From assembly GCA_002709075.1 (NCBI GenBank), contig PAPV01000004.1:230787-294786 (forward strand): 64,000 nt of DNA. The letters run 5' to 3'. Below the pieces are notes generated by a model. It was not told the origin of the DNA. It made no database searches and worked only from the letters and a program-made list of their open reading frames with translations. The translations under genes and the position numbers were made by a program. Positions 24,319 to 27,268 of the stretch are shown here, in pieces. Source of the stretch: Rhodospirillaceae bacterium (GTDB lineage: Bacteria; Pseudomonadota; Alphaproteobacteria; MPNO01; UBA2964). Every line of letters starts with the position of its first letter. The first letter of the stretch is position 1.

Positions 24319-24990
24319 ATGGATCGAAGACTTTTCGGTCGTAGAAAAGGCCGCCCGCTGCGCCCCCAGCGTCAGAATCTTCTCGATACACTTCTGCATG
24401 AATTAACAATCGATGTAGAAGAAATTGGTCTATGTAAAAATCTAGGTCGTGAGTTATGCATAGAAATTGGGTTTGGTTCTGGGGAGCATCTAATTTGGCA
24501 AGCTCAAAACAACTCCAAAAACTTTTTTATTGGCAGTGAGGTTTATATAAACGGCATAAGCCGTTTGCTATTAGATATTAATGAGAAATCACTAAAAAAT
24601 ATTCGTTTGTGGATCGACGATGGGAGACTATTACTAGAGGCATTGCCTAATGAATCCGTAGATGTCATATATATTTTGTTCCCGGACCCATGGCCCAAAA
24701 CACGACATCACAAACGGCGTATTATTGGAACGTCCACCGTATACGAACTTGCGAGAGTTTTAAAACCTGGTGGGATTTTGAGAACAGCAACAGATGTTTC
24801 TGAATACAAGACCTGGATGTTACAACATATTCTCAATTGTGGCGAATTCAGCTGGGAGGCTCGAAGGCCAATTGACTGGCTCGAGCGGCCGATCGACTGG
24901 CCTGTAACCAGATATGAGATCAAAGCATTGGGTTCTAACCGGAATTGCGCGTACTTTTCATTTAAAAGAAACACTTTGAAAATTTACTAA
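24319..24990 (+). CDS. trmB: tRNA (guanine-N7-)-methyltransferase TrmB
   Basis: Class I SAM-dependent methyltransferase making m7G46 in tRNA. It is 223 residues: N-terminal FGRRKGRPLRPQRQ segment, SAM-binding motif CIEIGFGSGEHL near residue 48, the FPDPWPKTRHHKRR catalytic/tRNA-binding stretch, and the C-terminal PIDWPVTRYE motif. It lies directly downstream of the gene that makes its methyl donor. No terminator-like structure follows within the 114 bases before rimP other than the attenuator candidate. Confidence 0.95.
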   Translation: MDRRLFGRRKGRPLRPQRQNLLDTLLHELTIDVEEIGLCKNLGRELCIEIGFGSGEHLIWQAQNNSKNFFIGSEVYINGISRLLLDINEKSLKNIRLWIDDGRLLLEALPNESVDVIYILFPDPWPKTRHHKRRIIGTSTVYELARVLKPGGILRTATDVSEYKTWMLQHILNCGEFSWEARRPIDWLERPIDWPVTRYEIKALGSNRNCAYFSFKRNTLKIY

Positions 24991-25039
24991 ACACCTTGCG
25001 GAGTTAATCTTTCTCGAGTTATAAAGACTAGATATCTTA

Positions 25040-25045
25040 TATAAT
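25040..25045 (+). promoter_or_regulatory. Candidate -10 element of the rimP-nusA operon
   Basis: A perfect TATAAT, with only weak -35 candidates at 16-18 bases upstream. A second possibility is TTGCGG (24996-25001), 18 bases, TATAAA (25020-25025). Either would give a leader of roughly 50-75 bases that contains the terminator-like hairpin before rimP. Confidence 0.35.
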
Positions 25046-25078
25046 TCCTGCTAAAAATTTAACGCAGTATTTTACAGA

Positions 25079-25103
25079 GGTGGGCCAACTGGTCCGCCTT
25101 TTT
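25079..25103 (+). terminator. Terminator-like hairpin abutting rimP (attenuator candidate)
   Basis: GGTGGGCC (25079-25086), loop AACT, and GGTCCGCC (25091-25098) form an 8-bp stem with two G-U pairs, directly followed by five T (25099-25103) and, one base later, the rimP ATG (25105). This is an intrinsic terminator shape placed at the head of the nusA operon rather than after a gene, so premature termination in the leader is the natural reading. A rimP-leader attenuator family is, as I recall, described from terminator surveys; I could not align to it. Confidence 0.65.
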
Positions 25104-25104
25104 C

Positions 25105-25656
25105 ATGAAAACGCAACGCAAGGGTCATGTTAAGCTAGTGAAGGTTGGGTATCGCGAACGTAAAGTTGTTGAACTTGTTTCTCATCAAATTGAAGAAATG
25201 GGATTTAATTTGGTGCGAGTTTTTTTTGTTGATGATGGACAAAAAAAACTTCAGATCATGATAGAGCGTGCAAATGGTTTTTTGATTACGGTTGATGATT
25301 GTGCTGATGTCAGCAAAATGATCTCGGCATTATTAGATGTAGAAAATCCGATTGCAGGAGCCTATGTTCTAGAAGTCAGTTCTCCTGGGATTGATAGACC
25401 TTTGATGTGTGAGGAGGATTTTGATCGGTATTCTGGATTTCTGGTAAACATAGAGTTGGATACCGAAATTTTTGGTCAACGGCGATATATTGGCAAACTT
25501 GTCGGCGTTGAATGCGGAGATATAAAAATGGTGTGCAATGATGAGGATGTAAGATTACCTTTTTCCTCAGTATGGAGTGCATCTTTAGTTTTGACGGATG
25601 AATTAATTGAAGCTACGCAGAGCGCATGGAAGGCGGCTGCGGAAAATGAGGGCTAG
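25105..25656 (+). CDS. rimP: Ribosome maturation factor RimP
   Basis: Assists 30S subunit assembly. The 183-residue frame has the N-terminal alpha/beta domain (VVELVSHQIEEMGFNLVRVFF) and the YVLEVSSPGIDRPL motif near residue 90 that marks the family, then the C-terminal SH3-like domain. The ATG at 25105 lies one base after a terminator U-tract and has no ribosome binding site of its own. GTG 25138, preceded by AAGGG 11 bases upstream, would give a more typical N-terminus and is a serious alternative start. It is the first gene of the nusA-infB operon. Confidence 0.93.
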   Translation: MKTQRKGHVKLVKVGYRERKVVELVSHQIEEMGFNLVRVFFVDDGQKKLQIMIERANGFLITVDDCADVSKMISALLDVENPIAGAYVLEVSSPGIDRPLMCEEDFDRYSGFLVNIELDTEIFGQRRYIGKLVGVECGDIKMVCNDEDVRLPFSSVWSASLVLTDELIEATQSAWKAAAENEG

Positions 25657-27268
25657 GGACGTGAAAAGCGATTTTGAGGAAGATACAGTAACTGGCGTAG
25701 GGTATGATCGTTTAGAACTCCTTCAGGTGGCGGAGGCGGTTGCCCGCGATAAGGGTATAGAAAAAGCAGAAGTTATAGACGCCATGGAACAAGCCATTCA
25801 AAAGGCTGCAAGAACGCGTTACGGATTGGAAAATGACGTGCGAGCTGAGATTGATAGCAAAAATGGGGAAATCAAGCTTGCGAGATATCTGGAGGTCGCA
25901 GATCCTGTAGAGAATGAAGCAACTCAGATTTCATTGTCAGAAGCGCGTGAGTTAAACCCTGATGCGGATGTGGGAGATTATTTAACAGAACCCCTACCGC
26001 CGATAGACTTTGGACGTATCGCCGCTCAGACGGCAAAACAAGTGATAGTCCAAAAAGTCCGAGAGGCTGAAAGAACGAGACAGTATAATGAATACAAAGA
26101 TCGTGTTGGCGAGATTGTTAATGGTATTGTTAAGCGAATAGAATTCGGCAATGTTACAGTTGATCTGGGCCGCGCTGAAGCAACTTTGCGAAGAGATGAA
26201 GTTATTCCTCGCGAGAGTTACAGACCGGGAGATCGGGTGCGTGCTTACGTCTGTGATGTAAGAGAAGAGACACGTGGGCCCCAAATATTTTTGTCTCGTA
26301 CACATCCACAATTTATGGCAGGACTATTTGCACAAGAAGTTCCAGAAATCTATGACTCTATCATCGAGTTGCGAGCAGTCGCTCGTGACCCTGGTAGCCG
26401 TGCAAAAATCGCTGTTATTTCAAATGATTCTAGCATCGATCCCGTGGGAGCATGCGTGGGTATGCGCGGTAGTCGTGTGCAAGCGGTTGTTGGTGAGCTG
26501 CAGGGTGAAAAAATCGATATTATTCAGTGGTCAGATGAACCAGCAACCTTTGTAGTAAATGGTTTAGCACCAGCAGAAGTCTCCCGAGTTGTTTTAGATG
26601 AGGAAGCAGGGCGTATTGAGGTTGTTGTGCCTGATGATCAATTGTCTTTAGCTATTGGACGGCGCGGTCAAAATGTGAGACTAGCATCTCAGCTCACCGG
26701 TTGGGATATCGTGATCCTCACTGAAGAGGAGGAGTCTGAACGTCGTCAGGAGGAATTCAAGAATAGGACTAAATTGTTTATGGATACGCTCGGCGTTGAT
26801 GATGTTCTTTCACATTTGCTAGTAGCTGAAGGGTTTACCTCTATTGAAGAAATTGCTTTTGTTCCAATTGAAGATTTGCTGGGTGTAGAGGGCTTAGATG
26901 AAGAGTTGGTGGCAGAGTTACGTGACCGTGCAGTGCAATATTTAAGCGAGCGCGACTCTGAGGCAGAAACCGTTAGAAAAGAACTTGGAGTATCAGATGA
27001 GGTGGCACAAATCGCAGGCTTAACCGCTCCGATGTTGGCTTCTCTCGGGGAGTCAGGAATTAAAACGCTTGATGATTTGGGTGACTTATCTGGCGATGAA
27101 TTGGTATCGTCTGAAGATGGTCTATTAAAGGAATTCGATCTTTCAGAAAAAGAAGCAAATGATATAATTATGGCTGCTAGAGCACATTGGTTTGAAGATG
27201 AGTTGCCCACCCAAGAAAAGGGCAATGATCCAGATACTGATGAGGAAAAAGAGAAGCCGATCGTTTAA
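25646..27268 (+). CDS. nusA: Transcription termination/antitermination factor NusA
   Basis: Binds RNA polymerase and nascent RNA to control pausing, termination and antitermination. From ATG 25646 it has 540 residues; GTG 25661, 5 bases after the rimP stop and preceded by AGGG, is an alternative giving 535. Order: N-terminal polymerase-binding domain (LLQVAEAVARDKGIEKAEVIDAM), S1 domain (GEIVNGIVKRIEFGNVTVDLG), two KH domains (including DPVGACVGMRGSRV and LSLAIGRRGQNVRLA) and two C-terminal acidic helix-hairpin repeats. The coding frame also extends upstream to 25607, which I reject because it overlaps rimP. Confidence 0.97.
   Translation: MRARDVKSDFEEDTVTGVGYDRLELLQVAEAVARDKGIEKAEVIDAMEQAIQKAARTRYGLENDVRAEIDSKNGEIKLARYLEVADPVENEATQISLSEARELNPDADVGDYLTEPLPPIDFGRIAAQTAKQVIVQKVREAERTRQYNEYKDRVGEIVNGIVKRIEFGNVTVDLGRAEATLRRDEVIPRESYRPGDRVRAYVCDVREETRGPQIFLSRTHPQFMAGLFAQEVPEIYDSIIELRAVARDPGSRAKIAVISNDSSIDPVGACVGMRGSRVQAVVGELQGEKIDIIQWSDEPATFVVNGLAPAEVSRVVLDEEAGRIEVVVPDDQLSLAIGRRGQNVRLASQLTGWDIVILTEEEESERRQEEFKNRTKLFMDTLGVDDVLSHLLVAEGFTSIEEIAFVPIEDLLGVEGLDEELVAELRDRAVQYLSERDSEAETVRKELGVSDEVAQIAGLTAPMLASLGESGIKTLDDLGDLSGDELVSSEDGLLKEFDLSEKEANDIIMAARAHWFEDELPTQEKGNDPDTDEEKEKPIV

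Follow-up and report, generated by a model that had tools for sequence, protein, structure and literature searches.

A putative premature terminator with its own predicted promoter in the rimP-nusA-infB leader of Alphaproteobacteria

The window analysed here is a stretch of 64,000 nucleotides from a 2.52 Mb alphaproteobacterial genome (G000), in which reading of the translations gave the gene order lnt, metK, trmB, rimP, nusA, a ylxR-like gene, infB, rbfA, truB and rpsO, and a hairpin followed by a run of T lies between trmB and rimP (Table 1). The hairpin arms, GGTGGGCC (25079-25086) and GGTCCGCC (25091-25098), enclose the loop AACT (25087-25090), A-U pairs lengthen the stem to 25076-25101, and a single base, C25104, separates the T run from an ATG at 25105. 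RNA folding of positions 25040-25110 gave -21.1 kcal/mol compared to -11.9 kcal/mol for shuffled sequences (z -3.3, with 1 of 200 shuffles folding equally well), and a search of all 2.52 Mb for the strict pattern GTGGGCC-N3..6-GGYCCRCC-TTTT found a single copy, against none in a reversed control. The original prediction of a hairpin and five T ending one base before ATG 25105 is borne out. A generic terminator scan of the window did not list this hairpin, apparently because the A-U extension of the stem takes in part of the T run. With two wobble pairs in its stem and only five T, the window carries a weaker copy than most. In the neighbouring trmB gene, a short in-frame repeat near the C terminus of the protein (RRPIDWLERPIDWP) suggests a small internal duplication.

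Table 1. Features of the trmB-rimP-nusA region, in positions of the window
Feature	Position	Strand	Basis or remark
trmB	24319..24990	+	neighbour upstream of the leader element and outside it; stop at 24990
-35 element TTGCGG, predicted	24996..25001	+	CTTG..-N16/18-TATA promoter pattern in leaders
-10 element TATAAA, predicted	25020..25025	+	18 nt spacer from TTGCGG; leader comparison
leader RNA, predicted	25032..25103	+	start near A25032 to end of T run; inference
weak 5' hairpin P1, CTGC/GCAG, 12-nt loop	25048..25067	+	folding; class-wide structure excess in the segment
terminator hairpin core GGTGGGCC(AACT)GGTCCGCC	25079..25098	+	sequence, folding, relatives, covariation
T run of terminator, five T	25099..25103	+	sequence
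rimP	25138..25656	+	favoured start GTG 25138; alternative ATG 25105
nusA	25661..27268	+	second in the operon; start probably GTG 25661

The original prediction took ATG 25105 as the first ATG of the operon and asked whether rimP starts there or at GTG 25138. The former is the first in-frame ATG, but it is probably not the start, having no ribosome-binding site besides the terminator arm itself, while GTG 25138 lies 37 nt past the stem and 34 nt past the T run. In a same-genus relative (locus L053, genome G001) a stop codon bars any start before +29 from the stem and no common start codon comes before +38, in most alignments RimP homology in relatives begins after residue 12 of the long form, and in most relatives rimP begins well past the T run; GTG 25138 is the favoured start. 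Although labelled as the same genus, G001 encodes a RimP with only about 33% identity to that of the window, which is closer to RimP proteins from many other families in the class, and the leader terminator of G001 is conserved despite this low identity.

The regions upstream of rimP were gathered from two sources, 53 genomes with that of the window among them and 80 alphaproteobacterial contigs located via NusA, the latter including those of Azospirillum, Methylocystis, Roseomonas, Gluconobacter, Parvibaculum, Bosea and Sneathiella. Nearly all of them had, at the same place, a hairpin resembling a terminator (GTGGGCC..GGCCCGC with a T run). Comparison of orthologous rimP leaders had been proposed as a check on the original prediction, and it came out in its favour, since most of the 132 alphaproteobacterial relatives keep the stem in position (13 had no hairpin call and seven more had a call without the motif). 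When 52 distinct hairpins were aligned, standard pairs made up 97.2% of the cells and four pairs had changed on both sides; none of 500 shuffles had as high a covariation score. A covariance model built for the element (R1) gave 91 matches in 144 whole alphaproteobacterial genomes, of which 59, including all of the best 30, were directly upstream of rimP (median distance to the beginning of RimP homology, 69 nt); 26 of these top 30 came from genomes outside the model-building set. With strict filters at E <= 0.001 a match was found in 71 of the 144 genomes, showing that R1 is specific rather than sensitive, and the window itself scored 30.1 bits, among the weaker matches. A phylum-wide scan also gave many matches, counted wherever they were located relative to rimP. 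Same-strand trmB was found upstream in 67 of 113 leaders and not detected in the other 46 (a count that includes a few short contigs), and the presence of the element in those 46 argues that it is tied to rimP rather than to trmB. Interpretation of the hairpin as a putative premature terminator in the rimP-nusA-infB leader is well supported.

R1 had a second match in the window's genome, at L144 1488-1525 (G000:C18:72653-72682), where a hairpin GGCGGGC(AAAT)GCCCGCC lies between two genes and scores as well as the rimP leader. It was considered as a second leader and rejected, since it is almost symmetrical and is matched by R1 on both strands, and is probably an ordinary bidirectional 3' terminator. 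At the position of the leader's retained U-G pair this hairpin has C-G instead, so the wobble may be what limits the leader terminator to one direction.

The two arms of the terminator are not conserved in the same way. At base 2 of the 5' arm hexamer, U was present in 106 of 112 stems. Its partner was G 76 times and A 34 times, and the U-G wobble was retained in 70 of the 112; the fifth pair was G-C in 87, C-G in 14 and G-U in 11, and the 3' arm read GCCCGC in 40 and GCCCAC in 29. In the 5' arm it is thus the sequence itself that is kept, whereas the 3' arm is conserved chiefly as the pairing partner. This asymmetry fits, without proving, a mechanism in which the nascent 5' arm, or the transcription complex passing over it, is recognised.

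Ahead of the hairpin, a promoter pattern of the form CTTG..-N16/18-TATA was found in 94.6% of 111 leaders compared to 11% of shuffles, with a median of 41 nt from the -10 to the terminator stem, and this was replicated in 50 leaders from other genomes (94% compared to 10.7% of shuffles). The predicted TTGCGG/TATAAA promoter of the window sits between trmB and the hairpin, about 20 nt upstream of a TATAAT at 25040-25045 which the original prediction had taken for the promoter of the leader. That assignment is not supported: the hexamer exists, 33 bases ahead of the stem, but no -35-like hexamer lies 16-18 nt ahead of it and it is not conserved as a -10-like sequence in relatives, family members having AATTACATTCCT-type sequence at this position. 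The true -10 is more likely to be TATAAA at 25020-25025, with TTGCGG. Across the leaders there is an excess of A at 7-8 nt past the -10, which places the predicted transcription start near A25032, and the leader would then be about 70 nt long with the terminator as its last third. Upstream of the terminator, the sequence of the leader is not conserved across the class. One motif, ATTCCT, close to the leader start (25044-25049 in the window, and also in L002-L008, L012, L016 and L021) is common to family relatives (ACATTCCTKTGG in genus g4) and to a few AT-rich families elsewhere. It was discarded as a class-wide element because, although striking in family f1, it was found in 6 of 77 dereplicated leaders against 1.0 expected.

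The segment from the predicted start to the terminator is more strongly folded than shuffled versions of it (mean z -1.12, n = 78), compared to control values of 0.02 5' of the promoter, -0.09 past the T run and -0.30 within rimP. After removal of similar leaders from this first set the mean z was -1.23 (n = 51) against -0.09 and 0.00, and in 50 further genomes it was -1.43 (n = 41) against -0.31. In the window this segment contains a weak hairpin, P1, of 4 pairs (-3.3 kcal/mol) which ends 14 nt before U25081. The 3' end of P1 was enriched 11-15 nt ahead of the invariant U of GUGGG (47% compared to 19%), and 10-14 nt before it when dereplicated leaders were examined in a 35 nt window (49% compared to 24%). 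This spacing was noticed after looking at the data, and with a fixed window of 35 or 45 nt the number of hairpins was not above that of shuffles, unlike in the promoter-aware test, with only the spacing enriched; the claim for P1 thus depends on correct promoter calls, and we treat its spacing as a lead. P1 is absent from the leaders of about 20 nt found in some families. Many alphaproteobacterial rimP leaders thus appear to have an additional 5' hairpin, whose end often falls 10-14 nt ahead of the invariant U. Such spacing resembles that of hairpin-stabilised pauses prolonged by NusA, and the G-U-G of the 5' arm resembles the G-Y-G of pause sites.

Naville & Gautheret (2010) defined a rimP-leader and called it the most ubiquitous of transcription attenuators; it has a GGGc(...)gCCC stem without any larger element or antiterminator, and NusA was named as its best candidate regulator (PMC2965389, Figure 2b). 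Like that leader, the window element is a terminator in the 5' leader of rimP-nusA-infB with a G-rich 5' arm, a C-rich 3' arm and a U-tract directly after the stem (the five T), and NusA is again the candidate. It lies 34 nt ahead of GTG 25138 (1 nt if ATG 25105 is used), compared to the described 4-130 nt ahead of the gene. Its inner motif, GGGCC(AACT)GGUCC, has the described stem with one C replaced by U, giving one G-U pair. No antiterminator is visible here either: leader sequence upstream of the stem pairs with the 5' arm no better than shuffles do (duplex energy, mean z -0.04, 78 leaders), which makes an RNA switch unlikely. The alphaproteobacterial form differs from the general one in its extended GUGGGC arm and retained U-G wobble, and many of its members add the 5' hairpin, whereas no larger conserved element was reported in PMC2965389. 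Judged on these sequence features, the window element is a class-specific form of the described rimP-leader attenuator; the arm asymmetry with its G-U drift, the attached promoter and the extra 5' hairpin P1 are new in the present analysis.

The gammaproteobacterial rimP leader in Rfam (RF01770) belongs to the same operon, and the E. coli leader, like the window, has a GGGC(TTTA)GGCCC-type hairpin, there followed by T7 (GGGCTTTAGGCCCTTTTTTT). RF01770 is, however, a model of 102 positions built on gammaproteobacteria, and at its gathering cut-off of 47 bits it matched neither the window nor nine alphaproteobacterial loci, while the E. coli positive control scored 102 bits. The search with the Rfam rimP leader model by which the original prediction was to be checked therefore returned no match. 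Across the 64-kb window no Rfam family reached its gathering score, tRNA included, with none upstream of metK, and candidates admitted up to E 10 were dismissed as chance matches (for example L20_leader, E 0.87). The alphaproteobacterial version was thus detected by no Rfam family in the present searches. In B. subtilis, according to a review (PMC12288461) that cites Mondal et al. 2016, NusA is autoregulated via NusA-stimulated termination in the leader of its operon; that leader shares with the window a terminator upstream of the NusA-encoding operon, and NusA-stimulated termination, which was tested there, would apply to the window by analogy. For rimP-nusA of S. agalactiae a short terminated RNA and a long mRNA arise from one start site, and NusA feedback has been proposed (PMC4448216); the short RNA terminates 31 nt from its start, compared to the predicted leader of about 70 nt in the window.

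The observed anatomy, promoter-like sequence, conservation, covariation and location of the element can be joined in a single model. Transcription would initiate near 25032 from the promoter TTGCGG-18-TATAAA between trmB and rimP, giving a leader of about 70 nt; the terminator at 25079-25103 would release part of the transcripts, and the remainder would read through into rimP-nusA-ylxR-infB. NusA is a general transcription factor, and by stimulating pausing and termination it would limit its own operon. The near-invariant 5' arm (GUGGGC), together with the lack of a detectable RNA antiterminator, fits a protein acting on the polymerase or on nascent RNA. We infer that termination is partial and regulated, and hold this explanation as a whole, with its own promoter, leader terminator, partial read-through and control most likely by NusA, to be probable; that NusA is the regulator in the alphaproteobacterial host is, by analogy, favoured with rather less assurance. 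Attenuation of rimP-nusA-infB, as originally predicted, is well supported by the class-wide conservation, the covariation, the upstream promoter and the persistence of the element next to a different upstream gene.

A strong constitutive terminator would give an identical sequence picture. Such a terminator would set a fixed fraction of read-through or insulate the operon, unregulated by NusA or any other factor, which would agree with neither a sensor domain nor an antiterminator having been found; this is unlikely, as the conservation of one arm beyond pairing exceeds what a plain terminator needs and NusA feedback on the rimP-nusA operon has been reported in other bacteria (PMC2965389, PMC12288461). 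It is quite improbable that the hairpin is a plain 3' terminator of a metK-trmB transcript, with rimP expressed from a downstream promoter or by read-through: same-strand trmB does lie upstream here and in the majority of leaders, but the conserved promoter lies on the trmB side of the hairpin rather than downstream of it, the spacing of promoter and hairpin is fixed around its median, and the element persists where no same-strand trmB was found.

The leader could also be a stable small RNA acting in trans, with termination merely making its 3' end, and the rimP leader is indeed among the ProQ-associated sRNAs derived from attenuators (PMC5391140); the region 5' of the terminator nevertheless lacks the class-wide conservation expected of a conserved base-pairing RNA, making this role very unlikely. 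Least probable of all is a hairpin that mainly blocks translation by covering ATG 25105, a reading to which the T run ending one base ahead of that codon would lend itself, but ATG 25105, which has no ribosome-binding site, is probably not the start, L053 cannot start until well beyond the stem, and the gene start in most relatives lies well past the T run.

Regulated attenuation of the rimP operon thus remains our preferred reading, and the analysis delineates an alphaproteobacterial rimP leader, with its own predicted promoter, that the present Rfam model misses. A covariance model of this alphaproteobacterial form would let rimP leaders be annotated throughout the class. We also suggest, as a speculation that we consider doubtful, that this leader may be a two-hairpin device in which P1, variable in sequence though its end commonly falls 10-14 nt ahead of the invariant G-U-G of the terminator arm, acts as a NusA-stabilised pause signal. 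It would hold the polymerase where the terminator begins, and the concentration of NusA would thereby be read twice, by pausing and by termination. If this is true, a pause hairpin combined with a fixed G-U-G would provide a testable reason why one arm of the terminator is conserved in sequence.
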